Below are positions 39,889 through 55,009 of a stretch of DNA of 64,000 nt, piece by piece (positions within the stretch are counted from its first letter, which is position 1; every line of letters begins with the position of its first letter). Source of the stretch: Synechococcus sp. C9 (GTDB lineage Bacteria; Cyanobacteriota; Cyanobacteriia; Gloeomargaritales; Gloeomargaritaceae); assembly GCF_022984075.1 (NCBI RefSeq), contig NZ_JALAAD010000001.1, positions 1 through 64,000 on the forward strand, read 5' to 3'. Under the pieces are notes generated by a model. The model saw only the letters and a program-made list of their open reading frames with translations, made no database searches and was not told where the DNA came from. The position numbers were made by a program, and so were the translations under genes.

Positions 39889-42800
39889 TCAATTCTGCTC
39901 AAATGATTGATGATTAAACTTAAGCGTCCGGCAATTTTCCATCACAGTGCGCTCTACATCGCTGGGAACTCCATTGGGAATATCAGCTTCAATTTCCAGA
40001 GTGATTTTGACCGTTGCGCCATTCAAAGCGGTGAGATGTTGAATGACTTCGTCAGCGATCGTGGCACTATCGCGATTGATACGTATTGCATCTAAATTCA
40101 CACTACCAAAAAATCTACGATGCTTGGGTGGGGGAGCAATGGGAGGAGTGGGAGGACAGAAGTCAGAAATGAGTTGTTGATTGCTCGTTGTTTCGCTTTC
40201 CTCACTTCTCTCTTCTCGTTCCTCTTTTCTCTTTTCCTCATCCAATTGTTGCTGAGCTACTTCTGGTTTTACCAAAAGACTTTGGGAACTAATGCTGGGA
40301 TTGATACCTGTACCTGCTTTTAACTCGATATACCTGCTCTTAGCTTCATCAAAGCCTTCCGCATAGGCAAAGTGGTCAGACCAAGCCGTTGAGGCGACAC
40401 CATTGCGCACTGCATCTAAAAGCACCTCTGGATGCTTTAATCGGGGCAAATAGAGGTATTGGGTGAGATATTCCCAAAGCCGTTTGAGATCGATGTGATT
40501 GATATCCCGCCAGAGAAATTTGTCTAGGGCTTCGAGTCGTAGGTTGGTGGCTGAATAGACGGGGATGAGGTCACCTTCATGGACAGCTTTGCGGCTCGCT
40601 TGTAGGATGGGGGAGTCTTGATTGGCTAGGCGTGTCTCCTTCCATGCAATTCCACCTTGGGCATTGGGTTGATGAGGAATTAGTAACCATTGATAGGTTT
40701 CCCGCAGAGTTGCTACCACCGCATCATTGGATTGTTTGAACTTAGTATCAGCCTGCTTATATTGAAAGACATCTAAGTTAAGGACATCTTTATTATCAAT
40801 AATTCCCTTCCAAGCTAGATATTGAGCAGTATTCTTTTCCAGAATTTCCAGTTTAGCGCCATCTGCACATAGAAATAATAGAGTATTTTTGTAATAGCGA
40901 GGACTGCTACCTCGGGAATTCAACGCATCTGCAACCCACTGGCGAGCAGGGCTATTGCTTTCCCCTTTACGATGCCCATAGGTTGGATTGAGGACAACCA
41001 ATCTTACCCCTGAATTGGGGTCATCGGGTAGATCAGCAGTGGATTCGGGGGCGATATGCACAGCGCTAAATTCCCCTTTGTTCTTGTCTGCTCTCAGGCG
41101 TTTGACAATTTCTTCCCAGACAAAATGACGATCCAACAACAGTTGTTCTGCCCGTTCCTGAGCTAAACGATTCACATTGGGCTGGGTGGAAATCCAGTAA
41201 CGATTGCCATCCACATAGACATAAGTGGCTTGGTCCGTGAGGCGGCGCAGGGCATCGCCAAATGTGGCAACAGTTTCCCCCGGTTGCACGCAACCCAGCT
41301 TAATCCGTCGTTCTTCTAATCCCCTCGTGGCGGCTCGCAAAGTGGGAGCAGAACCCATGTAAATTGTCCGGGCAACCCGACGACAGGCAGAATAGCGCCC
41401 TAAATTGGGATTATTACCATCGAGAGATAGAGGTAAAGAATTAGCTCCATCCACATCTTTATCAATGATCGGAATCCAATTGTCATCCAGATAACGAGTG
41501 AGTTCAGGTTGCACTTGCAGGTCATCCATCGGCACATGGGCGGGCATGATCATCAGGCTTTGGTCATGGCGTTCCCATAGAGAATGAATGACTTTTGCCA
41601 TTAAACGCAGTACGCCCCGGGTTCTTTGGAATTTGTCAATGCTAGACCAGTCGGAATAAAGGCGATCAAACAATTCAGGATGGATGGGATAGGCGACTTT
41701 CATGCGTCGCTCATAGTCGGATTCCTTGCATTCACTAGGAAATTCAACACTCTGGGTGCGATACATATCCATAAACGCTTTAATCACTGCATCCCTCTGC
41801 ACAAACAAGGCAGGATCGGTAGTCGGTTGAAATAAACGCCGCCGCACAATTTCAAAACTCTCTTCGGCACTGGCAGGTCGCCAAGGGGATTCTACTCGCC
41901 CGATTGCATTTTTTAATCTAGTGAGAGCTTCCTTGCCCCGCTCGCCCCCAGTTTCAATATCAGAACATGGAATACTGACCACCAAGAGAGTTTTTTTAGC
42001 ACTTTTAGCCGATTCACTCAAGGTTTGAGCAAAGGTGAACTGGGTATCAAAACTACCGCCTGCTAGGTCATTCTGTTCATGTAATTGTCGGGCATAGGCA
42101 ACCCATTCATCAATCAAAATCAAACAGGGAGAGAAGCGGTTAAAAAGAGCTTTTAGGGTATCGCCAGGGTTGGTAGCGGTTTCATCGGCACGCCGTACCA
42201 TTTCATATCCTTCCATACCCCCTAATTGCCATGCCAATTCGCCCCACAGGGTGTTAATGACAGGACGCTTTGCCCCATCAGCACCATAGGGCATAATTCC
42301 ACTGGGCTGGAGTTTATTACCCACCAAGACAGCAACATTGACATTTTGAGGAGGGTGGTCAATACCTACTTCCTGAAAGATGGGTTCTGTACCAGGAAGA
42401 TCAGCTATTTTAAGAGCATGGCATAGGTGATAGAGTGCCAGCATGGCATGGGTTTTACCACCGCCGAAGTTGGTCTGCAATTCAATTACGGGATCGCCAC
42501 CTAGTCCATGCAAACGGCGTAAAGCATTCTTAAGTAGTTCTTTCAATCCTTCTGTCAGATAGGTGCGGCGATAAAACTCAGTGGGGTCACGGTATTCATC
42601 AGCACCTTCATCGAGATAAACCTGCCAGAGATCGGCGGCAAATTCTGCCAATTGAAAGCTTCCTGATGCCACATCGGGATGGGGTGTGGCAATTTCCCGC
42701 CAAGGCTTTAATCCTGATAATGGTTGTCCTTCTGTTGATGAAGTAGCGATGCGTCGGGTTTGCTGGCGGGCTTGTTCTTCAAATTTGAGACGGAGAAGTT

Positions 42801-43212
42801 CTTGTTTTTGTCGTTCTACTTGGTTAGCTTGTGGAGCAGAAATGGCGTTTAGGAGTCTAACAATGCTATCTAGGGCACGATAGGTATCATCGGTCGAAAA
42901 GATTTTGGTGTGTGCCCAGTCATTTCGAGTTGTTCTCAGTTCGCTAATTAAAGTTCTTTCTGATTGTCCTAAGGTTTTTTTGAAAACATCATTCCATTTC
43001 TGCCACATCAAAATTAACAGAGCTGAGACATCGGTTTTTAGGGCTTGTTCAGCGGTTTTATTATGTAAATAACTTTCTGGTATGGTAGTAGCGGCAACTT
43101 CTAGCCATTGATCGCCATATTCTGCTTTCATTTCCCGTTCTATGTAGGGATATAATTCATCACCGAGAAGGTCTAAGGCTCTGCCGATGCGTTCACGATT
43201 GGTGATTGACAT
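39889..43212 (-). CDS. Swt1-HEPN/DUF499 ATPase (defence-associated)
   Basis: A 1107-residue protein. The first ~130 residues are a Swt1-type HEPN domain (RIGRALDLLGDELYPYIEREM, then SELRTTRNDWAHTKIF, the R-N-x-W-A-H motif). The P-loop TNFGGGKTHA is near residue 246 and Walker B CLILIDEWVAY near 366, both typical of DUF499 (COG1483). The C-terminal IEADIPNGVPSDVERTVMEN is also DUF499. Such ATPases accompany DUF1156 methyltransferases in defence islands, and here the methyltransferase lies upstream on the same strand. The exact role is unknown. The start is the first ATG after which family similarity begins; the frame extends to 43287. Confidence 0.85.
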   Translation of the reverse strand: MSITNRERIGRALDLLGDELYPYIEREMKAEYGDQWLEVAATTIPESYLHNKTAEQALKTDVSALLILMWQKWNDVFKKTLGQSERTLISELRTTRNDWAHTKIFSTDDTYRALDSIVRLLNAISAPQANQVERQKQELLRLKFEEQARQQTRRIATSSTEGQPLSGLKPWREIATPHPDVASGSFQLAEFAADLWQVYLDEGADEYRDPTEFYRRTYLTEGLKELLKNALRRLHGLGGDPVIELQTNFGGGKTHAMLALYHLCHALKIADLPGTEPIFQEVGIDHPPQNVNVAVLVGNKLQPSGIMPYGADGAKRPVINTLWGELAWQLGGMEGYEMVRRADETATNPGDTLKALFNRFSPCLILIDEWVAYARQLHEQNDLAGGSFDTQFTFAQTLSESAKSAKKTLLVVSIPCSDIETGGERGKEALTRLKNAIGRVESPWRPASAEESFEIVRRRLFQPTTDPALFVQRDAVIKAFMDMYRTQSVEFPSECKESDYERRMKVAYPIHPELFDRLYSDWSSIDKFQRTRGVLRLMAKVIHSLWERHDQSLMIMPAHVPMDDLQVQPELTRYLDDNWIPIIDKDVDGANSLPLSLDGNNPNLGRYSACRRVARTIYMGSAPTLRAATRGLEERRIKLGCVQPGETVATFGDALRRLTDQATYVYVDGNRYWISTQPNVNRLAQERAEQLLLDRHFVWEEIVKRLRADKNKGEFSAVHIAPESTADLPDDPNSGVRLVVLNPTYGHRKGESNSPARQWVADALNSRGSSPRYYKNTLLFLCADGAKLEILEKNTAQYLAWKGIIDNKDVLNLDVFQYKQADTKFKQSNDAVVATLRETYQWLLIPHQPNAQGGIAWKETRLANQDSPILQASRKAVHEGDLIPVYSATNLRLEALDKFLWRDINHIDLKRLWEYLTQYLYLPRLKHPEVLLDAVRNGVASTAWSDHFAYAEGFDEAKSRYIELKAGTGINPSISSQSLLVKPEVAQQQLDEEKRKEEREERSEESETTSNQQLISDFCPPTPPIAPPPKHRRFFGSVNLDAIRINRDSATIADEVIQHLTALNGATVKITLEIEADIPNGVPSDVERTVMENCRTLKFNHQSFEQN

Positions 43213-43226
43213 AGGAGGTGAGGGGG

Positions 43227-43415
43227 TTAGCGGGTGGGATGGACGAAAATGCTGAGTATTTGCTCTAGGTCTTTGTTGATGTCGCATTCACTTAAATCAA
43301 TACTAACAGTTTTGTCTGCCAAACTCAAGAATCGCCAAATTGTGCCGCTGGTAACGGCGTTGTCCTGTTGATTAAAAATTTGGTCAACGATTATGGCGAC
43401 AATACATTGGGCAAA
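43227..43415 (-). pseudogene. C-terminal gene fragment cut by a MITE copy
   Basis: Read on the minus strand, an open stretch starts at the MITE boundary and runs FAQCIVAIIVDQIFNQQDNA, VTSGTIWRFLSLADKTVSID, LSECDINKDLEQILSIF to a TAA at 43227. The GTIWRFLSL...VSIDL...ILSIF pattern is the end of a family of putative restriction-like proteins common in cyanobacteria. No start is present: the 5' part is missing where the repeat at 43418-43518 begins. Confidence 0.65.
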
Positions 43416-44795: not shown

Positions 44796-45368
44796 TTAAC
44801 TCCAAATTAGGGTAAAATCCATTGTAAAGTTAGGCAGGACAGGATCGGCAGAGAGGGTATTAGGACGATCGCACACTTGTACGGTCTGCCCGGGGCGATA
44901 GCAGTAAACTTGGCAGGTTTCGGGATCAATTAACCATCCTAATTGTGCGCCATTTTCCATGTATTCTTGTAGCTTGGCTTGTAGGGTGGACAAGTCATCG
45001 CTGGGGGATTTGAGTTCCAAAACAAAATCGGGACAGAGGGGCGCAAAACGGCGGCGTTGTGCGGCTGTGAGGGCATTCCAACGAGATGCGTTAATCCAAG
45101 CGGCATCGGGTGAGCGGATAGCTCCATTGGGCAGGGTAAAACCAGCGGATGAATCCAGTACTATTCCCAGTCGCTTCTGGCGATTCCATTGCCACAGTTG
45201 ACCAAGCAAGTCGGCGTTGTAATATCCAGTTTCACTGCCAGCGGGTGCCATAGCGATCAATTCTCCTTGGGCGGTGCGCTCTAGGCGTAGGTCAGGGTTC
45301 TGCCGACAGAGTTGTTCAAAAACTGCATCGGTGAGTTCTAGGATGGGTTTTAATTGCAGAGCAACCAT
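44796..45368 (-). CDS. Uma2-family putative endonuclease, duplicate B
   Basis: A 190-residue partner of the preceding gene, with the same PDFVLELKSPSDDLSTLQAK active-site block. It ends 21 bases before duplicate A begins and starts 13 bases after the methyltransferase stop, so all are probably co-transcribed. Function unknown; Uma2 proteins are nuclease-fold and often linked with mobile DNA. Confidence 0.8.
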   Translation of the reverse strand: MVALQLKPILELTDAVFEQLCRQNPDLRLERTAQGELIAMAPAGSETGYYNADLLGQLWQWNRQKRLGIVLDSSAGFTLPNGAIRSPDAAWINASRWNALTAAQRRRFAPLCPDFVLELKSPSDDLSTLQAKLQEYMENGAQLGWLIDPETCQVYCYRPGQTVQVCDRPNTLSADPVLPNFTMDFTLIWS

Positions 45369-45381
45369 ACATTATCAAGGG

Positions 45382-48300
45382 TTAGAACAAAGCAGTCTGG
45401 ACATTACGCTGGTTCATTTCTAAAGCTAAACGGCTGATTTCCGACCAAGAGATCACCAAGCTATTGTAACCGATCGCTTCTTGTGTCCAACCTTTTTTGT
45501 CGCACAAACTATAGAGCCGATAGGCAAGATCACGGGCGATCGCTCCTCTGTCATTCAGATTAGCCAACAATTCAGCGGCACCAACTTCCCCTTTTTGATC
45601 GAGGGCGTGGATCAGGGTTTGAGTGATGAGCCAGTCGGGGGGAGCGAGGAGTGAGGATTTATCTTTCCTCTCTTCTATTTCCTCTCTTCTCAACAATCGC
45701 ACTTTACCCGCTTTTGCTTCCAAAATTCCCGCTTCGACCATGCTTTGCACACTGACATTTTTGGCTTTACTGAGGGTTTCGGCATCGCCATACAGTCCCG
45801 CCTCAAATTGATATTGTTCAAACCAAGTGAGTGCCCAACGGGTAATGCTGTCAAATTCCCCTTCCTGTTCGGTGAGGTATTCATCGAGGTATTGGTTAAT
45901 CAGTTGCAGAGCGGTGCGGACAGTGAGGGGAGAACCATCGTTTTCTAGGACAGCGGCATAGCGAGAATAAACCGCCATCCCTGGACCAATGCTGGCTTGG
46001 GCTAAATCTACGGGGGCGATACTGCCCTGTTGCAGAAGTTTGAGGGCTTGGGGTAGTTCTTGTTTGAGTTCTTTGAGGAATTGACTACGACTGGCTTTGG
46101 GCGCATCCGCTGGACGGGGACGGCAAACCAAGACAATGGAAGAGGCAAGGGCATTAGATTTTTGTCCTCTCATGCGGTTACTCAACTCAGTACGAAGGGG
46201 CCAGGTGCCATCAATGCTAAAGTTAGATTGAATCAAACCTTGGAGAATAGTTTCCCAGCCTGTTGAAGCTCTCTGACTATTATCTTTTGCGTTCTTGTTA
46301 GGAAGATCAACTGCATCAAGGTCATCAACTTCATCATCATCAGAACCGCTTTCGGTTTGCTTTAGAGCATAATAAACTGTGACAGGATAATCAGGATGAT
46401 TTATATGATTGACACGATCGAAAACTTTGATGAGACTGCTTTCAAAAAATTCTTTAGCTTTATCTTTACTGCCATGCCGAAAGTGATCCGCCACCATTTC
46501 TTGAGCTTTGGGCACTAAAACTGTATTGAAAATGGTGGGATAAATGGAGCCAAGGGAGCGACGTAGCCAAACATAGAAGAAATCAGACAGGTCTGCATAG
46601 GGAACTGCGTCATAATAAGGGGGATCGGTGGAGATGAGCTTGGGGATGGTGTCGTGGGGGTGAGGAGCCGTTGCGTCGTGTTGGGTGACTTGTGCATAGT
46701 TTAAATCTGAAGGAATAGATGACAAACCTTTTAGCAGTCTAGTAAACAAATTATGGAAGCTTCCAGATGACTCACAAAAAGCGTTACTTTCTGCAAAATC
46801 CCAAACCATTGGGATAGCTTGGCGTGCAAAAACACTATGCATTTGCTGATTTCCCGGTTCCCATCGGCATACACTTGATTGGTGATTAGCCAGCTGATCA
46901 ACTAGAAACGCCAAATAAACGCTAATCGCCTCTCCATAAGCCCTAGCTCCTGTTCCACCCTCAGCCAAGGGCACATCATCATCAGTGAGTCCTGCGGCGA
47001 TCGCATCTTTGATGACTTGTTCCCGTGCCTCTGCTACCAAATCGCTGAAGGTTGTAAGGGCTACCAGTTGTCGAGGGGTGAATAGATCGGCGTGTTTGGT
47101 CATGCCGTAGCGGGGAGCCGCCATGTATTGCGAATGAGTAGATAACTCTGTATCCGGTTTCCAGGTTGGTTGAGCAGATTTGGCAATAGCTTCATGCTCT
47201 GCGGTGGGAGAGAGATAAATTCTGCCGTTTTGTCCCTCAGCCACGATCGCCATCAACTGCGCGCCCATGCGTCCTGCTCTACCTTCTTGGCGCACATGAT
47301 CCAAAGCTACAGGAGTTCCACAGGCGATACATTTTGCCCCTTTGCGACCCACTGTGCCTTCGGGGGCTTTGCCTTGACCCGACTTCACCACAAACCGGAT
47401 GGTTGGGCCCTCACCCTGCCCTCTCCCAGAGGGAGAGGGTTCTGAGTTTTTTCCCCCTCGCCCTTGGGGAGAGGGGGCTGGGGGGTGAGGGATACTCTGT
47501 CCCATGGAGAGAGGGGCATCCGTCCGCTCGATCGCCAGCTCTACCCAAGCCTCTTTGCCCTTCTTGGTCGAAAGTTGAAACGATCGAACCAACGGCATCT
47601 GACAACCGCAAGCAGGGTTAGGACACTTCACCGTTCTTGCCCACAGCCAAGCAATGACCGTTGCTTTTCCCTCACCCCCGGCCCCTCTCCCAGAGGGCGA
47701 GGGGAGAAAGGCGGCGCGGATTTGCTCCAATGCTAGGGGAAGATTAGTTTCCACAAGATGGCTACTGAGACGCACAAACCGCAATCCTAGACTTTCCAAC
47801 AGTTCCTGCCGTTGGCGATCCAAATCTTTTTGATGCTCGTGGATTGGCCCATCAACTTCTACAATCAAAGCCTCTTCCTTGCAGAAAAAATCAACCACAA
47901 ATGTGCCGATCGGGTGTTGCCGCCGAAACTTACGCCCCTCCAACTTACGGTTACGCAACACTTCCCACAAAATCGCCTCAGAACGTGTAGATTCCCGCCG
48001 CAGTTGTCGAGCTACCTCCTGCATTTTCTTCTGAATTGCTGGAGGAACTTCCCACTTCTCCAACTCCCCCTCGCCCTGTGGGAGAGGGGGCTGGGGGGTG
48101 AGGGAAACATCGCCCCTGGGGAGAGGGGGTTGGGGGGTGAGGGCAACCTTCGGATACAGATGCCCAATCTGCTTAAAAGCCTCATCCCGCATCCATGCTC
48201 CGTAGTAACGTACATCCGCCGCTAATCCCTGCGCCCCATACCACCGCTTCAAATCAACTACTCCCCCTCGCCCTGTGGGAGAGGGGGCTGGGGGGTGAGG

Positions 48301-48927
48301 GCAATCAATCGGGTTCACTGGTGGCTGATCCCTAAACTTCGGCGGGATTTCAATCAACGCCTTATTGATTAGTACCGCTACAGGATTCAAATCGCTGGCA
48401 TGAGCTTCTAATCCCAACCGCTGAGCTTCCAAGGGAATTGAACCCCCACCTGCAAACGGGTCATAGACAGGAGGAGCATACTGGGCAATGTAGCGCCTGA
48501 CCGCCTCTGGTTCCGTCGGTGGTTCTTCCCCCCGTTCCCATGCCAAACATCGGGCAATTTCCCGCTGTGCCGCCTCTAACACCCCCGAATTTGGGTCGTT
48601 GATGTCATCCCAAGACACCAACCCCCGCACGACTTGCTTCTTACTACCTTTCTTATCAGTCTCAATGACCACTCGCCCCAAAATATCGAATAACCGTTGT
48701 CTTTCTTTCGCTTGTTCTTCTTCCGTCGGGAACTTATCAGCCCAACTAGAAGGATCATCCACCAGGGAAGCCCACAATACCGCCCGACAAGCCGCCAAAG
48801 GTCTGCGTGCCCACCACAAGTGCAGGGTAGAGGGATGCCCATGACGGATAGACTTTTCCCGTGCCGACTCCATATTGATTGCTTCTAGGGGCAGGGCAAC
48901 TTCAATCAGCTTTTTGCGTTGGGGCAT
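45382..48927 (-). CDS. DUF1156 adenine-specific DNA methyltransferase with in-frame repeat and nuclease inserts
   Basis: An 1181-residue N6-adenine-type methyltransferase (COG1743). The N-terminal DUF1156 has [20 protein letters not shown] and [20 protein letters not shown]; the SAM motif YDPFAGGGSIPLEAQ is near 155, zinc-ribbon cysteines CPNPACGC and CIACG follow, and the catalytic DPPYYDAVPY is near 769. Three in-frame inserts interrupt it at loops: residues ~208-222, ~262-420 (a DUF559 nuclease domain with repeat ends) and ~479-506. Without them the protein would be about 980 residues, near the usual family size. No stop or frameshift is seen, so it may be functional. Probably protects host DNA in the defence cassette. 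Confidence 0.88.
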   Translation of the reverse strand: MPQRKKLIEVALPLEAINMESAREKSIRHGHPSTLHLWWARRPLAACRAVLWASLVDDPSSWADKFPTEEEQAKERQRLFDILGRVVIETDKKGSKKQVVRGLVSWDDINDPNSGVLEAAQREIARCLAWERGEEPPTEPEAVRRYIAQYAPPVYDPFAGGGSIPLEAQRLGLEAHASDLNPVAVLINKALIEIPPKFRDQPPVNPIDCPHPPAPSPTGRGGVVDLKRWYGAQGLAADVRYYGAWMRDEAFKQIGHLYPKVALTPQPPLPRGDVSLTPQPPLPQGEGELEKWEVPPAIQKKMQEVARQLRRESTRSEAILWEVLRNRKLEGRKFRRQHPIGTFVVDFFCKEEALIVEVDGPIHEHQKDLDRQRQELLESLGLRFVRLSSHLVETNLPLALEQIRAAFLPSPSGRGAGGEGKATVIAWLWARTVKCPNPACGCQMPLVRSFQLSTKKGKEAWVELAIERTDAPLSMGQSIPHPPAPSPQGRGGKNSEPSPSGRGQGEGPTIRFVVKSGQGKAPEGTVGRKGAKCIACGTPVALDHVRQEGRAGRMGAQLMAIVAEGQNGRIYLSPTAEHEAIAKSAQPTWKPDTELSTHSQYMAAPRYGMTKHADLFTPRQLVALTTFSDLVAEAREQVIKDAIAAGLTDDDVPLAEGGTGARAYGEAISVYLAFLVDQLANHQSSVCRWEPGNQQMHSVFARQAIPMVWDFAESNAFCESSGSFHNLFTRLLKGLSSIPSDLNYAQVTQHDATAPHPHDTIPKLISTDPPYYDAVPYADLSDFFYVWLRRSLGSIYPTIFNTVLVPKAQEMVADHFRHGSKDKAKEFFESSLIKVFDRVNHINHPDYPVTVYYALKQTESGSDDDEVDDLDAVDLPNKNAKDNSQRASTGWETILQGLIQSNFSIDGTWPLRTELSNRMRGQKSNALASSIVLVCRPRPADAPKASRSQFLKELKQELPQALKLLQQGSIAPVDLAQASIGPGMAVYSRYAAVLENDGSPLTVRTALQLINQYLDEYLTEQEGEFDSITRWALTWFEQYQFEAGLYGDAETLSKAKNVSVQSMVEAGILEAKAGKVRLLRREEIEERKDKSSLLAPPDWLITQTLIHALDQKGEVGAAELLANLNDRGAIARDLAYRLYSLCDKKGWTQEAIGYNSLVISWSEISRLALEMNQRNVQTALF
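47408..47491 (-). repeat. 84-bp in-frame palindromic element (methyltransferase copy)
   Basis: Ends CCCTCACCC and GGGTGAGGG are inverted; the two arms each form GC-rich hairpins (CCCTCTCCCAGAGGGAGAGGG and CTCGCCCTTGGGGAGAGGG cores). 84 bases equal 28 codons, so the reading frame is kept. On the gene strand it encodes PHPPAPSPQGRGG followed by KN and SEPSPSGRGQGEG. A sister copy of the same length and register is in the helicase gene at 52266-52349. Confidence 0.9.
47669..48143 (-). mobile_element. DUF559 nuclease cassette with repeat ends, embedded in frame
   Basis: CCCTCACCCCCGGCCCCTCT at 47669 faces inverted CTGGGGGGTGAGGG ends at 48104 and, in a second tandem arm, at 48143. Between them lies a Vsr-like DUF559 domain in the methyltransferase frame: RRESTRSEAILWEVLRNRKL, FRRQHPIGTFVVDFFC, LIVEVDGPIHEHQKD, RQELLESLGLRFVRLSSHLV. 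The catalytic-type D (VVDF) and E/H (VEVDG..H) are present. Conserved methyltransferase text stops at HLYPKV before it and resumes at ATVIAWLWARTV after it. Confidence 0.8.
48261..48301 (-). repeat. half-length palindromic arm in frame in the methyltransferase
   Basis: CTCCCCCTCGCCCTGTGGGA and GAGGGGGCTGGGGGGTGAGGG: one arm of the 84-bp element. It encodes PHPPAPSPTGRGG between the conserved blocks RDQPPVNPI and LKRWYGAQGLAADVRYYG. Confidence 0.85.
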
Positions 48928-48940
48928 AAAGACATCCGTA

Positions 48941-49330
48941 TTACTTCAGAATTTTAACATGGGGATAGTTAACAATCTTGGCATCCATCGTCAAGAGTGG
49001 ACAGTCATAAACTTGTGCTGTTGCCACAATAATTTGATCCGCTGGATCATTGTGAAATCCTACAAGTTGCGTAGATTGAATCACGATCGGCAAGGTCAAA
49101 TCCAGCAGTTGTACTCCGGGGTAAGAAATTGCTATATTTAGCCATTCATTGACTGAGCCAGTCAATTCCATACGACCCTTTTCTACTAGCTTGGCAACTT
49201 CCCAGCAAGAAAAGATGTTAACTCCTAAACTGCTTGATTGATGTATAGTAATTAACTCCCGCAGTCGCTTCGTTAACTGAGGGCTGTCATTGACCCACCA
49301 CACCCAAATGTGAGTATCTAAAATAATCAC
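48941..49330 (-). CDS. PIN-domain toxin (VapC-like)
   Basis: A 129-residue PIN ribonuclease-type toxin. Acidic residues: D in IILDTHIWVWW, E in SCWEVAKLVEKGR, D in NDPADQIIVATA and D in LLTMDAKI. GTG at 49330 overlaps the antitoxin stop (GTGA), the usual coupled arrangement. It ends 13 bases before the methyltransferase start, making it the last TA gene in the slot. Confidence 0.88.
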   Translation of the reverse strand: MIILDTHIWVWWVNDSPQLTKRLRELITIHQSSSLGVNIFSCWEVAKLVEKGRMELTGSVNEWLNIAISYPGVQLLDLTLPIVIQSTQLVGFHNDPADQIIVATAQVYDCPLLTMDAKIVNYPHVKILK

Positions 49331-49542
49331 TTCAGCACTTCCCAATCTTCAGTAGGTACGGCTGGCTCAAAGGGATCGTCATAGCGTAGCACAGTCCCTC
49401 GCAATGGGTGGTCTATTGGTCGTTCTGCCTTTTTCTGCTCCAGAATGATGATTTCCACTGTATCCCCAGCGTGAAACGGCAATCCTTTCAGCAGTAGGGT
49501 TCCATCTTCTATCAAAGTCACGGAGAGCTTATGGACATTCAC
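49327..49542 (-). CDS. antitoxin of the PIN module
   Basis: A 71-residue protein: KLSVTLIEDGTLLLKGLPFH, AGDTVEIIILE (swapped-hairpin-like beta head), then LRGTVLRYDDPFEPAVPTED (toxin-binding tail). The start is GTG at 49542, with AGGAGG seven bases ahead. That ribosome site is the end of the helicase gene fragment at 49546-49589, not part of the TA gene itself. The ATG at 49569 is inside that fragment. Confidence 0.8.
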   Translation of the reverse strand: MNVHKLSVTLIEDGTLLLKGLPFHAGDTVEIIILEQKKAERPIDHPLRGTVLRYDDPFEPAVPTEDWEVLK

Positions 49543-49545
49543 GGG

Positions 49546-49785
49546 TTGTCCTCCTTGGGTCATATCCATGTTGCCACAGTTCTTTCCATCGGAAATTGAT
49601 CAGCCCAACTGGTAAGGATCATCCACTAGGGAAGCCCACAATACCGCCCGACAAGCCGCCAAAGGTCTGCGTGCCCACCACAAATGCAAGGTAGAGGGAT
49701 GCCCATGACGGATAGACTTTTCCCGTGCCGACTCCATGTTGATGGCTTCTAGGGGTAGGGCAGCTTCAATCAGCTTTTTTTTCAT
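49546..49785 (-). pseudogene. chimeric scar: methyltransferase 5' fragment fused to helicase 3' end (copy 2)
   Basis: Bases 49785 to 49590 (minus) repeat the first ~195 bases of the DUF1156 gene: [20 protein letters not shown] and on to LWASLVDDP, then a stop. They join at 49590/49589 to 44 bases (49589-49546) that match the last 44 coding bases of the helicase (full copy 51365-51322) with one difference. The identical join occurs at 50251/50250. It is a recombination product, and its helicase part supplies the SD for the antitoxin downstream. Confidence 0.88.
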
Positions 49786-49795
49786 AGGATAAAGG

Positions 49796-50005
49796 TTATT
49801 CGAGATCAGATTCTGATAGCTTAGCTTGTTTCATAAAGTGGCGGAGTAGTCCAATTTTGAGGTCTTTATTGCCGTGGATCGGGACAGAAATGCGGATTGA
49901 TTCACCAGGTTTAGTATAAATGTGATGGCTACCCTGCACTCGAACCAATTGCCATCCTTTACGTTCCAAAATTTTGGCAAACTGCTTACCTAAAATGGAC
50001 TTCAC
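49796..50005 (-). CDS. hicA: HicA-type toxin
   Basis: A 69-residue double-stranded-RNA-binding-fold toxin, mRNA interferase: [20 protein letters not shown] with the catalytic histidine in GSHHIY, then [20 protein letters not shown]. It overlaps the HicB gene by four bases (ATGA). Unusual only in order: antitoxin HicB comes first here. Confidence 0.9.
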
Positions 50006-50205
50006 ACAGCAATTTCCATAATTCTGCTTTTTTCAGAAGTAGCAGGGGCTTCAATGTCCACGGACAAACAACCCTCGATCGCTTCATAAAGATTTGTCAG
50101 CAACTCTTCAAAGCTATCCCCCTGGGTTGCACAGCCAGGAATAGCTGGTACTTCCGCCCAAAAACCACCCTCTTCAGCTTCATGCACTATAACTTTTAAC
50201 TTCAT
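50002..50205 (-). CDS. hicB: HicB-type antitoxin
   Basis: A 67-residue HicB: VIVHEAEEGGFWAEVPAIPG, CATQGDSFEELLTNLYEAIE, the partial RNase H-like fold without a DNA-binding tail. Its ATG overlaps the stop of the helicase 3' fragment (ACA-ATA-TGA), reproducing the coupling expected after a complete helicase gene; the AAGGAGG site lies in that fragment. Confidence 0.9.
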   Translation of the reverse strand: MKLKVIVHEAEEGGFWAEVPAIPGCATQGDSFEELLTNLYEAIEGCLSVDIEAPATSEKSRIMEIAV

Positions 50206-50206
50206 A

Positions 50207-50375
50207 TTGTCCTCCTTGGGTCATATCCATCTTGCCACAGTTCTTTCCATCGGAAATTGATCAGCCCAACTAGAAGGGTCATCCACAAGGGAAGCCCACA
50301 GCACCGCCCGACAAGCCGCCAAAGGTCTGCGTGTCCACCACAAGTGCAGGGTAGAGGGATGCCCATGCCGACTCT
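50207..50375 (-). pseudogene. chimeric scar: methyltransferase 5' fragment fused to helicase 3' end (copy 1)
   Basis: Bases 50375-50251 match the early methyltransferase region ([20 protein letters not shown] by eye) but have lost the start codon and a ~19-base stretch. They join at the same point as copy 2 to a 44-base helicase 3' end (50250-50207). More decayed at the 5' side than copy 2. Confidence 0.85.
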
Positions 50376-50429
50376 AGTTTTTGCGATGGGTCACAGGAGT
50401 TGAGAGTATAAATTTTCAACCAGTTTAGC

Positions 50430-50852
50430 CTAGACCTCAAGTGGAATCTGCCGTGTCAGCAAATCTTGGAGAATAGACTGCCAAATTCCTCTCGCCAATT
50501 CTATAGCTTCCCTAGCATTAGCTTCAGTTAAGTTTTCCCTCAATATCGGATAGCGGGACACAACGAACCAGTCCGTGAGTATTCCCAACTGCGGGTAGTT
50601 ATGTTTCACTCCCCAACTATCTGGCAGAAGATTCTTCAGAAGATCAAGATCGTGAGTTTTCGGAAAATCAATTTGCTCTAAGACCAATGCTGTTTTCAGA
50701 GCTTTTTCTGCCGACTGCTGGGCAAAAGCGCAGATATGGCGGGGCACTTCAGGATTGTTTTGCATCAATAGCTCTGCCGCCTGCAAATCCTCTGTGGCGT
50801 ATTGCCACCACCGCTGGACTAGCCCTATTTGTTCAGGACTGGGGACACTCAT
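50430..50852 (-). CDS. HEPN-domain protein of an MNT/HEPN module
   Basis: A 140-residue HEPN protein: LVQRWWQYATEDLQAAELLM, ICAFAQQSAEKALKTALVLE (the diagnostic helix) and VSRYPILRENLTEANAREAI. HEPN/MNT pairs are TA systems in which the nucleotidyltransferase AMPylates or otherwise silences the HEPN RNase. The ATG at 50852 lies 20 bases inside the MNT gene; the frame upstream is shadow. Confidence 0.88.
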   Translation of the reverse strand: MSVPSPEQIGLVQRWWQYATEDLQAAELLMQNNPEVPRHICAFAQQSAEKALKTALVLEQIDFPKTHDLDLLKNLLPDSWGVKHNYPQLGILTDWFVVSRYPILRENLTEANAREAIELARGIWQSILQDLLTRQIPLEV

Positions 50853-51183
50853 AAAGCATTTTCCCTTCGCACAGAGCAGGTCGTAGAATCGTGCCGACCA
50901 GATGCCCATAGGCTTGAATTTCTTCTGGCGTTGTCACCACAATATCTTTGGGGATAGGTAAATCGCTGAGTAAGGCAAGAATATCCAAAGTCTTCTGCCG
51001 TTTATTATCCACAGTGGAAAATACTATCAGGAGATCAATGTCGCTGTGAGGAGTAACTTCGCCTCTAGCATAGGAGCCAAACAAGATGATTTTTAGGGGG
51101 GCAAAGTGCTTGATGATGCGATTACACATCACATCTATCCAAGGGTTGGGTGGAACATTGTCAAAAGGGGCAAGAGAGACCAT
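50833..51183 (-). CDS. minimal nucleotidyltransferase (MNT) of an MNT/HEPN module
   Basis: A 116-residue nucleotidyltransferase: APLKIILFGSYARGEVTPHS followed by DIDLLIV (GSxARG-x10-DxD catalytic motif). The third carboxylate lies in KDIVVTTPEEI. ATG at 51183 preferred over the TTG at 51186. It overlaps the HEPN gene by 20 bases. Confidence 0.9.
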   Translation of the reverse strand: MVSLAPFDNVPPNPWIDVMCNRIIKHFAPLKIILFGSYARGEVTPHSDIDLLIVFSTVDNKRQKTLDILALLSDLPIPKDIVVTTPEEIQAYGHLVGTILRPALCEGKMLYECPQS

Positions 51184-51204
51184 CAAACTTGTCTGAGATA
51201 GTTC

Positions 51205-51317
51205 TTATATCCATCACTGGCTCAAAAGGGTTTTCATATTGCAATTTACGAGAGGGCGATTGCTCTCAGGGTAATTCTCTCTTGTTTTGAGATCACTTTT
51301 AGCTTAAGAGTGGTCAT
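51205..51317 (-). pseudogene. decayed antitoxin gene coupled to the helicase stop
   Basis: From ATG 51317, overlapping the helicase TGA (ATGA), the frame reads MTTLKLKVISKQERITLRAI and ends at a TAA after 23 codons. Just after, in another frame, LQYENPFEPVMDI matches the C-terminal RYDDPFEPAVP of the PIN-module antitoxin at 49327. I read this as a frameshifted, internally deleted antitoxin of that family whose toxin is gone. It implies a fourth TA module once occupied the slot. Confidence 0.7.
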
Positions 51318-54300
51318 ACATTTGTCCTCCTTGGGTCATATCCATCTTGCCACAGTTCTTTCCATGAGTAATTTACACTGCATGACCGGAAATCGGGGGG
51401 CTGAAATGGCTGATGCACATAGCGCACTGCACAATCTAATTGATAATCTCCATCAGATTCTCGCACTCGATATGCGTCCCCCTCGACAAAATCACGATCA
51501 ACGGGAACCTGCACCAATGCCAAAATAAAATTATCGGGTTTATTCAGGGCGGTTAAAATTTCATTTTTCGTAACTGTAACCGTTTCCGCCCCTGCTACCC
51601 TGCCTTTGACTTCTATAAATCGCAATTTCCCTGTACTGGGCACAAATGATTCAATATCATAGCCGCACTTTTCATGACTCACATCTTTTGGTTCATGTCC
51701 CAGCGATCGCTCTATTGCCATGACTGCTAACATTGCCGCTTGTTCCACCCGCTGGGTTTCTCTCGCAAAGGTGTTAGGGGTAGATGTCCGCTTGCCCTGG
51801 AGTCTTTGCAATAAGCCGATGGGCAGGATCAACGCCCCACCCACTACTACAGGCGGTAAAGGGGAAAGTTGGCGTTCCTGTTCTAACTCCAGCAATCGCT
51901 TTTGCAAGCGTGCCGCCAATTCATCCGCCCGTTGTTGGGCTTTGGCAGAGTTCAGTTTGGCATTGGGTTTGCCTGCCTGTTCCTGTAAACGTAAATCCGC
52001 CGCCCGTTGATCCCAATAGTTAATCTCTTTCGTCAGTCGGTCTTTAACTGCCCGCACTGTTTTTTCAATCAATCTTTCTTTCCCTTCCTTTACTTCTTGC
52101 AGATGGGGAGCAACCAGATGGGCAATGGCATAACTCATTGCTTTACTTTCAATATCCTCACGCAAACCCAAATCATTGAGAGCCGATGCGACCAAGGGCT
52201 TTTCGCTCTCCTCTAACGGGCGATAGTCCAGGTAGGGGGCATAACCAGCATTTCTGATTCTTACCCCCTCACCCTGCCCTCTCCCAGAGGGAGAAGGTTC
52301 TGAGTTCTCTCCCCCTCGCCCTTGGGGAGAGGGGGCTGGGGGGTGAGGGTCAAAAACCTCCACATATTGCATTCGCCGTGATACAACCCTTCTACTGCCA
52401 TCCCGTTCTGTCCGTCCATCCTGAATCGAATGCTCCAAGTACACCAATGCCCGAACTGCCTCACCGGGGTCATTGTCATCAACGAGAACAGCCCCTTGAC
52501 GAAGCAGATGGCGGTGACGCTCCAAAGTCAGGTCAATGGTGGCATCCAGGAGCGGATGACCAGGACAAATAAACTCAGCCAAGGGCTTTCCCGCCACACT
52601 AATCAAGTTTTTCTCAAAACAAACCCGCTCATACCGTTTCAAAATCACCTGCCCCCTACCAATCAAACGATCCCGACTACGAATTATCCCCGGAACATGG
52701 GTAATTTCATAGCGTTTCGGTTCCCGCTGGTGAATTGTACCGCCCAAGCACTGGAACGCTTCCAAGAAAAAGGCTGAGATGAAATGGGGCTGGAGTTTGC
52801 GGGCTTCTATTCTGTCCATTTCCCGGCGAATTTGTTGTACCTTAGTCACATCCATCGAATCCCCTGCTAAGGCTCGTTCTTCTAGCAATGCTCGCAGACG
52901 GTTTTGATCCAAGCGGTTCTTCACCACCTGATCCAACTTTGCTCTGACTTCAGGACGATCGCCATAACGAATTGCCTCAATCAACAGTTCCCGTAGTTCC
53001 TTCCCGGCGATTGCTTTCCCCAACACATCAAACACCTTGCCGCCGAGAGCTTTTTGCTCAATTTCTAGCTTCTTAAGCAGTGCGAGATACACATCTCCTT
53101 CCCTCGTTTCTTCTGCTACCAAGTTCCAAAGATGGCACACCTCCGTCTGTCCAATCCGGTGAATCCTGCCAAAGCGTTGCTCCAACCGATTGGGGTTCCA
53201 GGGCAAGTCATAATTGACCATCAAATGCGCTCGTTGCAGGTTAATCCCTTCCCCCGCCGCATCCGTAGCGATTAACACTTGCACCGTCACATCTTGCTTA
53301 AAGGCTTCCTCTGCTTTCTTACGCTCTTCCCGTCCCATACCCCCATGAATCGTCACCACCGCCTCCGGTCGCCCCAACAGGGTGGTAATTTGACTGACCA
53401 AATAATTTAGGGTATCGCGATGTTCGGTAAAGATAACTAATTTTCGGCGCTGTCCCCCTGCATCAAACATCTCTGCATTATTCTGTAACAGCTTGGATAG
53501 CTCATCCCACTTGCGGTCCTTGCCACTGCGTCGCACCCGTAGGGCTAAATTTTCCAGTTCACCGAGCTGGTGAATTTCCGCTTGCAGTTCAGCGATAGTA
53601 CGAGCCGCCGTGGCTTGGTCAACTACTTCTTCCTCTTGTTGTTCTCGTTCATCACTAGGGGCATCCTCAAAATCATCATCCCAATCCTCCGGGTCAATTA
53701 GAGGAGTGAGTAACGAGAGTTGAGAAGCGAGAAATTGTTGCGCTCCTGTCTCGCCTTTCTTCTCAATCCGCTCTCCTCTCTTAAGTAGTTCTTCTTCCCG
53801 TAGGCGTTTCTGCAACCGCTCCCGCCGTCGTTTAAGAGACTGATAAATCGCTTCTGGAGAAGAAGCAAGCCGACGTTGCAAAATCGTTAAAGCAAAACCA
53901 ACTGTCCCTTTTCGTCCATCATTGGCTAAGGCTTCAGCCCGGTTAAATTCCTCCCTGACATATTCTGTAACTTGTTTGTAAAGCATTGCCTCCAGGTCAG
54001 ACAAAACATACTTGACGGTATGGGCACAACGTTCAGGAAAGAGCGGTTTGCCATCGAATTTCAGCAGGTCCTCCTTGACCAAACGACGCATCAGGTCCGA
54101 TGGGTCGCAAGTATGTACCCCGTCTCGAAATCGCCCCTCAAAGCGATCCCCATCCAACAGTGCTAAGAACAGCTGAAAATCTTCCTCCTTGCCGTTATGA
54201 GGCGTTGCCGTCATCAATAGGAAATGGCGAGTCAGGGTTGATAACAATTTACCGAGCTTATAACGTTTGGTTTCCTTAATTTCACCCCCAAAAAACGAGG

Positions 54301-55009
54301 CAGACATCTTGTGCGCCTCATCCACCACAATCAAGTCCCAGTCTGTCTGTTGTAACTTTAACTGCAAGTTCTCGTCACGACTGAGTTTGTCCAACCGCAC
54401 AATCACTAGGGGCATTTCCGCAAAGGCGTTCCCAGAGCGAGCCGCTTCGAGCCGGTCATTGGTCAAAATCTCAAAAGGCAGATGAAATTTTTGCAACAAT
54501 TCATCTTGCCACTGCACCGCCAAACTGCCAGGACAAACAATCAAACACTTTTGTAAATCACCCCGAATCAATAGTTCACGAATAAATAGCCCCGCCATGA
54601 TGGTTTTTCCGGCTCCTGGATCGTCTGCTAGGAGAAACCGCAGGGGTTGCCGGGTCAGCATTTCGCCATAAACCGCCGTGATCTGGTGAGGCAGAGGTTC
54701 CACCAACGAGGTATGCACCGCCAGCAGTGGATCAAATAAGTGAGCCAAACGAATGCGATGGGCTTCAGAAACCAACCGCAACAGCGCACCATCCCCGTCA
54801 AAACCCCAAGGTCGTCCGTCCGTAACGATTGCCAAGGTCGGCTCCCGGTCACGAAACAGAATCTCCGTGTGAGGTTGCCCGTTCGCATCCTTATAGGTCA
54901 GTTCAACCACGTCACTCCCATGCCACTTCGCATCAATGATGGTCACGTTATGATTTGGCAAAATGCCTCTGACAGTAGCACCACGGGTGAGGTCTTCGAG
55001 CTTCGCCAT
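51314..55009 (-). CDS. SNF2-type helicase with DUF3883 nuclease-like C-terminus
   Basis: A 1231-residue superfamily-2 helicase. Motif I DDPGAGKTIMAG near 125, motif II VVDEAHKMS near 226, motif III TATPHNG near 264, and helicase-C blocks ATDAAGEGINLQ and EQRFGRIHRIGQ near 580-625. The C-terminal DUF3883 (PD-(D/E)xK-like) has CGYDIESF and LRFIEVKGR near 1105-1135. An in-frame 28-residue repeat peptide lies near 888-915. First gene of the minus-strand island operon; likely the DNA-translocating part of the predicted defence system. Its last 44 bases recur twice downstream. Confidence 0.9.
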   Translation of the reverse strand: MAKLEDLTRGATVRGILPNHNVTIIDAKWHGSDVVELTYKDANGQPHTEILFRDREPTLAIVTDGRPWGFDGDGALLRLVSEAHRIRLAHLFDPLLAVHTSLVEPLPHQITAVYGEMLTRQPLRFLLADDPGAGKTIMAGLFIRELLIRGDLQKCLIVCPGSLAVQWQDELLQKFHLPFEILTNDRLEAARSGNAFAEMPLVIVRLDKLSRDENLQLKLQQTDWDLIVVDEAHKMSASFFGGEIKETKRYKLGKLLSTLTRHFLLMTATPHNGKEEDFQLFLALLDGDRFEGRFRDGVHTCDPSDLMRRLVKEDLLKFDGKPLFPERCAHTVKYVLSDLEAMLYKQVTEYVREEFNRAEALANDGRKGTVGFALTILQRRLASSPEAIYQSLKRRRERLQKRLREEELLKRGERIEKKGETGAQQFLASQLSLLTPLIDPEDWDDDFEDAPSDEREQQEEEVVDQATAARTIAELQAEIHQLGELENLALRVRRSGKDRKWDELSKLLQNNAEMFDAGGQRRKLVIFTEHRDTLNYLVSQITTLLGRPEAVVTIHGGMGREERKKAEEAFKQDVTVQVLIATDAAGEGINLQRAHLMVNYDLPWNPNRLEQRFGRIHRIGQTEVCHLWNLVAEETREGDVYLALLKKLEIEQKALGGKVFDVLGKAIAGKELRELLIEAIRYGDRPEVRAKLDQVVKNRLDQNRLRALLEERALAGDSMDVTKVQQIRREMDRIEARKLQPHFISAFFLEAFQCLGGTIHQREPKRYEITHVPGIIRSRDRLIGRGQVILKRYERVCFEKNLISVAGKPLAEFICPGHPLLDATIDLTLERHRHLLRQGAVLVDDNDPGEAVRALVYLEHSIQDGRTERDGSRRVVSRRMQYVEVFDPHPPAPSPQGRGGENSEPSPSGRGQGEGVRIRNAGYAPYLDYRPLEESEKPLVASALNDLGLREDIESKAMSYAIAHLVAPHLQEVKEGKERLIEKTVRAVKDRLTKEINYWDQRAADLRLQEQAGKPNAKLNSAKAQQRADELAARLQKRLLELEQERQLSPLPPVVVGGALILPIGLLQRLQGKRTSTPNTFARETQRVEQAAMLAVMAIERSLGHEPKDVSHEKCGYDIESFVPSTGKLRFIEVKGRVAGAETVTVTKNEILTALNKPDNFILALVQVPVDRDFVEGDAYRVRESDGDYQLDCAVRYVHQPFQPPDFRSCSVNYSWKELWQDGYDPRRTNV
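52266..52349 (-). repeat. 84-bp in-frame palindromic element (helicase copy)
   Basis: Same length, ends (CCCTCACCC/GGGTGAGGG) and register as the copy at 47408-47491, differing at only a few bases. It encodes PHPPAPSPQGRGG, EN, SEPSPSGRGQGEG between QYVEVFD and VRIRNAGYAPYLDYRPL, a loop before the conserved AGYAPYLDYRPL block. Confidence 0.9.

Follow-up and report, generated by a model that had tools for sequence, protein, structure and literature searches.

A DUF559 nuclease gene between inverted hairpin arms, kept in frame within a cyanobacterial DNA methyltransferase, as a probable copy of a single-gene mobile element

The DUF1156 DNA methyltransferase gene hmaB lies in the 64,000-nucleotide stretch of Synechococcus sp. 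C9 DNA analysed here (the window). It contains a cassette that is probably a copy of a single-gene mobile element, in which the mutually inverted hairpin arms P1 and P2 enclose a DUF559 nuclease gene and the whole is retained in the host protein. The cassette has a defined anatomy and an open frame. Elsewhere it recurs in unrelated genes, inverted arms accompany the nuclease, a close pair of sites differs by its precise presence or absence, and the embedded nuclease evolves under purifying selection. Such cassettes may further represent a hitherto undescribed class of mobile element, spread across phyla and consisting of hairpin arms and one DUF559 gene. Its members would become permanent translated domains of their host proteins, home without splicing, give rise to 84-bp derivatives devoid of the nuclease and, in cyanobacteria, prefer restriction-modification (R-M) genes. 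We regard this wider proposal as a serious possibility that falls somewhat short of being probable.

The cassette in hmaB

The features referred to below are the following.

39889..43287, minus strand: hmaC, ATPase (DUF499) of the Hma defence locus (PADLOC HmaC)
45382..48927, minus strand: hmaB, the host gene, DUF1156 DNA methyltransferase (Pfam; PADLOC HmaB)
47408..47491: 84-bp short element (P1, spacer, P2), in frame in hmaB
47669..48143, minus strand: the entire cassette, comprising two 5' hairpin arms, the DUF559 nuclease and one 3' hairpin arm, in frame in hmaB
47669..47704: 3' arm, P2 half of the element, peptide LPSPSGRGAGGEG
47713..48027, minus strand: DUF559 nuclease domain, predicted Vsr/EDxHD-like with a PD-(D/E)XK fold (Pfam, alignment, model, PDB matches)
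48064..48104: inner 5' arm, P1 half, peptide LTPQPPLPQGEG
48108..48143: outer 5' arm, second and diverged P1 copy, peptide LTPQPPLPRGD
48260..48301: solo P1 half-element without DUF559, in frame in the hmaB ORF, peptide PHPPAPSPTGRGG
51314..55009, minus strand: hmaA, helicase of the Hma defence locus (PADLOC HmaA)
52266..52349: second 84-bp short element, in frame in hmaA

PADLOC matches all three components of an Hma system, HmaA, HmaB and HmaC, together in the window. A single unbroken frame (45382-48927, minus strand) encodes the 1181 amino acids of HmaB, in which Pfam detects both DUF1156, at the N-terminus (E 2.7e-31), and DUF559, at residues 301-405 (E 5e-30). This bears out the original prediction, made from the letters alone, of a repeat-bounded nuclease in frame within a DNA methyltransferase. 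The conserved methyltransferase text ends at HLYPKV, as had been noticed, and an alignment of about 30 homologues places its resumption at TVIAWLWARTV. The cassette is 475 bp long and preserves the frame of hmaB. DUF559 is the sole gene that Pfam finds in it and uses neither a start nor a stop codon of its own, while the arms are translated as Pro/Gly-rich linkers. Upstream of the hmaB start codon, the 5' end of the gene is repeated twice in truncated form (49594-49790 and 50235-50380), with DUF1156 matches at 49609-49761 and 50242-50385; these repeats are apparently partial duplications.

The 5' and 3' arms of the cassette are GC-rich and mutually inverted (46 nt, 78% complementary). They had been taken to be the same as those of the 84-bp element. 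The two are indeed related, but each arm corresponds to one half only, P1 or P2. The short element thus reads P1-spacer-P2 and the cassette P1-DUF559-P2, with the nuclease standing where the short spacer stands. When the 84-bp element is folded as single-stranded DNA, an outer stem bearing two hairpins results (z = -3.8, better than 200 of 200 shuffles). Its two copies, in hmaB and in the neighbouring helicase gene hmaA, are identical at 81 of 84 positions. A 21-bp palindrome occurs eight times in the window with at most two mismatches, against 0.05 expected. The 2.96-Mb genome holds six exact copies, all within one 5-kb locus in the hmaB/hmaA region. Since none was found in the other genomes of the same genus that were searched, this locus looks imported, and the cassette probably reached the genome along with it.

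The nuclease scores 104 bits against the DUF559 family (PF04480), whose gathering cut-off is 20.6. The catalytic-type residues that had been pointed out from the sequence are invariant across 40 aligned sequences: D61, E72, D74, H78 and D85, a D, ExD, H, D motif. An AlphaFold2 model of the domain built from the 40 sequences (pLDDT 88.6) matches 3hrl, an endonuclease-like protein of Neisseria (E 2.4e-7), and 3r3p, the catalytic domain of the homing endonuclease I-Bth0305I (Foldseek E 5e-4, probability 1.0, TMt 0.72). By its modelled fold and its catalytic-type residues, the domain is a predicted member of the EDxHD/Vsr-like nuclease superfamily. A DUF559 gene is placed in EDxHD, in passing, in PMC9403480, and DUF559 is treated as Vsr-like in PMC12907096 (VsrA of Caulobacter).

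The linker that joins HLYPKV to TVIAWLWART varies among the roughly 30 cyanobacterial DUF1156 proteins aligned. DUF1156 homologues both with and without the insert were found, as had been asked for. DUF559 occupies this linker in five proteins (the window, L072, L130, L141 and L146), always with arms, and about 14 have a short linker of 10-13 amino acids. It is thus not a regular, borderless part of the DUF1156 family, the finding that was to have counted against an insertion. Palindrome sequence without DUF559 is found at the same place in L122 and L124, and other repeats, such as NHGGTEDTE-type and EVSKENG tandem repeats, in L129, L131, L143 and L144. The HLYPKV linker of DUF1156 proteins is a hotspot for repeat insertion. 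In L041, DUF559 lies within a DUF1156 protein at a site other than this linker.

Inverted arms, palindromes and empty sites

To measure the association of arms with DUF559, the two 250-bp flanks of the gene were compared for their best inverted match; scores of at least 16 were counted, and the same measure shifted by 1-2.5 kb served as control. Inverted arms were present at 35 of 73 named loci against 0 of 526 shifted controls, and at 24 of 54 loci on viral contigs against 0 of 325. For two partly overlapping cyanobacterial sets the figures were 48 of 57 fetched loci (controls, 2/424) and 21 of 29 top loci (controls, 0/54). The arms fall into several sequence families, and the two ends match within each cassette. 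Like insertion sequences and MITEs, the cassettes carry terminal inverted repeats at both ends (about 30-50 bp).

Stand-alone DUF559 genes with the same repeat ends had also been proposed as a check. Inverted-repeat ends do exist at such genes, but the cyanobacterial stand-alone genes with a RIRGTTP start (L004, L006, L007, L013, L018, L026 and others) have a different inverted arm, GCCCCCTAAATCCCCCATTCTGGGGGACTTTGA, which is common to several genera; palindromes of the window's style were looked for around them and were absent.

DUF559 is found in 240 of 390 cyanobacterial genomes. Palindromes and DUF559 occur together in 119 genomes, palindromes alone in 28, DUF559 alone in 121 and neither in 122 (odds ratio 4.3, p 6e-10, kinship ignored). 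The suggestion that DUF559 is the autonomous partner that mobilises the short palindromic copies is plausible in the light of this co-occurrence, but 13 of the genomes, with five or more palindromes each, have no DUF559.

A pair of genomes of the same genus provides an empty and an occupied site in HsdR (G123, locus L314, and G212, locus L313, respectively). Over 600 bp to each side, the flanking sequences of the pair are 95% identical. The insert is 586 bp long and replaces 7 bp; the net gain of 579 nt is a multiple of three and leaves the frame open. The same gene holds a short P1-P2 element in G129 and G252, where it replaces 27 host nucleotides; G123 and G212 lack this element. Neither the HsdR cassette pair nor the HsdR short-element site, the two sites examined, has a target-site duplication.

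These data bear on the reading in which the cassette is passive, that is, a DUF559 gene that was caught between dispersed palindromes and is moved about by ordinary recombination or by template switching, the nuclease playing no part in this. It would accommodate the lack of target duplication, the occurrence of palindromes without DUF559 and the copies (L037, L042 and L048) that have complete, directly oriented P1-P2 repeats on their flanks. Yet the same gene is found between arms across phyla, even though the arm families differ, and its active site is conserved. Moreover, G288 and G177, genomes of 5-6 Mb, contain just two exact palindromes each, both of them flanking DUF559. We consider a passive cassette unlikely.

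Host genes, selection and descent

Open frames of more than 300 amino acids hold 56 of the best ~150 cyanobacterial DUF559 matches listed, and most of these 56 loci have the arm-DUF559-arm layout. All 23 hosts recognisable by Pfam are R-M genes: MmeI-like (at least six positions), Eco57I-type IIG, type ISP, HsdR, HsdS and DUF1156. This count leaves out L086, a truncated ORF showing DUF559 only. In named genomes of other phyla, R-M genes again carry the cassette in frame (HsdM, HsdR, ISP and MmeI-like), as do genes for LeuRS, ValRS, a PurL-type amidotransferase, MetH, UvrA and HisF; insertion specific to R-M genes was accordingly rejected. In five Bacteroidota (L186, L188, L199, L208 and L242), DUF559 sits in frame in the editing-domain region of LeuRS, an essential enzyme; two of these hosts were typed by Pfam and three by matching flanking sequence. 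A query made by joining the two flanks matches the window genome's own LeuRS across the junction; an ordinary LeuRS thus has no insert there. The short palindromes do not share the R-M bias, being found in a glycosyltransferase fusion, CheA-like, WD40 and HEAT proteins, as well as between genes.

The make-up of the cyanobacterial hosts could be taken to mean that DUF559 was recruited to give R-M and other defence enzymes an additional nicking or cutting activity, the arms being incidental linkers. Besides the 23 R-M genes among 23 typed hosts, the intact active site and the purifying selection would agree with such a fusion, as would the plasmid-borne DUF559 genes, stand-alone or separate, that adjoin DUF1156 and PglX genes or lie inside them. 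However, the same cassette occurs in LeuRS, ValRS, PurL, MetH, UvrA and HisF, it occupies several unrelated positions even among MmeI-like enzymes, it is missing from most homologues, and the inverted arms are left unexplained. Because the hosts include housekeeping enzymes, the earlier idea of a nicking function added to the defence enzyme is weakened, and functional fusion seems to us improbable, slightly more so than the passive cassette. The cyanobacterial preference for R-M genes may reflect their frequent transfer and tolerance, or some benefit. That the cassette is the remnant of an intein or intron, removed from the protein or the RNA, would suit an in-frame nuclease of patchy distribution in a conserved gene, but is very improbable indeed: Pfam finds no Hint/intein domain in any scanned host (the window's HmaB, other cyanobacteria, other phyla), an Rfam scan of window positions 45000-53000 reveals neither a group I/II intron nor another known RNA family, the insertions lie in variable linkers away from conserved motifs, and the arm peptides are Pro/Gly-rich linkers. 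Together with the in-frame recurrence in unrelated genes, this agrees with the view first put forward, that a nuclease gene travels in a palindromic element without splicing motifs.

The embedded DUF559 domain is under purifying selection. Its median dN/dS is 0.07-0.13 in the three larger groups, near the host value, with many pairs saturated; one group consisting of a single pair gives 0.49, from very few changes. Between G288 and G177, fourfold-degenerate differences number 0 of 33 in the cassette domain and 115 of 350 in the host (p 5e-6), and the conserved tract stops near the arms, which is suggestive of homing-like transfer. Two further pairs show the same trend and other pairs do not; lower divergence of the cassette than of its host holds for some close pairs only and was rejected as a general rule.

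A tree of DUF559 was built from 106 columns, and many of its forks are weak. It places the window copy in a group, supported at 94% SH-aLRT, whose other members are copies from DUF1156, type IIG and MmeI-like hosts and L164, a stand-alone gene flanked by arms. Judged by sequence, this group is one cassette lineage distributed over three host families. Host types cluster on the tree with weak support, which would mean that moves to new genes are rare and that resident copies are mostly inherited with their host. No movement between loci inside one genome was seen.

Possible mode of movement and kindred systems

If the cassette is indeed a mobile element, its nuclease likely drives the movement, by cutting and homing. 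The nuclease would be made as a domain of its host protein and would cut the unoccupied allele or hairpin DNA. The break would then be repaired by copying in the cassette, by way of flanking homology and the arms, in a homing-like manner that leaves no target duplication. Such repair-based insertion fits better than classical transposition, since target duplication is absent and few host nucleotides are replaced. Survival would require landing in frame within a tolerant linker, where the Pro/Gly-rich arms could serve as flexible tethers, and the cassette would stay in the host protein as an extra surface domain. The 84-bp P1-P2 elements may be nuclease-less derivatives or precursors, and the copy in hmaB would be carried along by the defence gene.

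By analogy, the cassette would work like a homing endonuclease combined with an in-frame palindrome of the Rickettsia type, in a layout that resembles REP/RAYT. EDxHD homing endonucleases (I-Bth0305I, PDB 3r3p; PMC3943268) share the catalytic-domain fold, the patchy spread and the insertion into protein genes. They reside in introns or inteins, or are free, and have long DNA-binding regions, whereas the cassette encodes a catalytic domain only, lacks a splicing element and has hairpin inverted arms. Rickettsia palindromic elements (PMC10969869), compared by description rather than by sequence, are likewise in-frame palindromes retained in proteins, but they are short and no nuclease gene is described for them in that paper; the cassette family has a nuclease-bearing form and spans many phyla. 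LAGLIDADG and ShiLan inserts in actinophage methylases (PMC9957025) are also non-intein nuclease domains in frame in DNA methylases, but of the LAGLIDADG type and in a single gene family, with palindromic arms unmentioned. The Vsr mismatch endonuclease and VsrA of Caulobacter (PMC12907096) resemble the cassette in their Vsr-like fold, DUF559 and the link to DNA methyltransferases; they are stand-alone repair enzymes tied to cytosine methylation, whereas the hosts of the cassette are mainly other R-M or housekeeping enzymes.

In REP/RAYT (REPtron) systems, a small gene for a DNA-acting enzyme also lies between palindromes and is accompanied by many short solo copies. The enzyme there is a Y1 HUH transposase and that of the cassette a Vsr/EDxHD-like nuclease; a REP/RAYT element was rejected for the window cassette, which has DUF559 in place of Y1_Tnp. 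An insertion sequence was likewise rejected, as DUF559 is the only cassette gene and no known transposase is present, and a classical insertion sequence or MITE also fails on target-site duplication at the two sites examined. The linker of type ISP enzymes holds the DUF559 cassette in several genomes, a RAYT-like Y1 transposase in two and four residues in two others. It is thus used by palindrome-flanked enzyme genes of two unrelated kinds. The in-frame RAYT-like Y1/HUH genes, L159 (G315:C292) and L160 (G157:C1, about 4603800), have AAGGGGCTTAAGCCCCTT palindromes.

If the proposal is correct, the cassettes form a class of selfish elements between inteins, homing endonucleases and palindromic in-frame repeats. 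Its members would enter coding and even essential genes without being spliced. Such a class would hint at the biology of DUF559, a family that is common but uncharacterised, and name a likely mobiliser of the GC-rich palindromes (PSPPAPLPxGEG / SPSGRGxGGEG peptides) that occur both within bacterial genes and between them. It would also point to a source from which R-M enzymes gain new domains and linkers. In the open literature searched, we found no paper joining DUF559 with such palindromic repeats, and a text search for CCCTCACCCC returned unrelated papers only.

At two loci, L308 on plasmid pAQ6 of PCC 7002 and L312, a stand-alone DUF559 gene lies immediately upstream of a DUF1156 methyltransferase gene. 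The pAQ6 pair, being in a model strain, offers a handy system for experiments.
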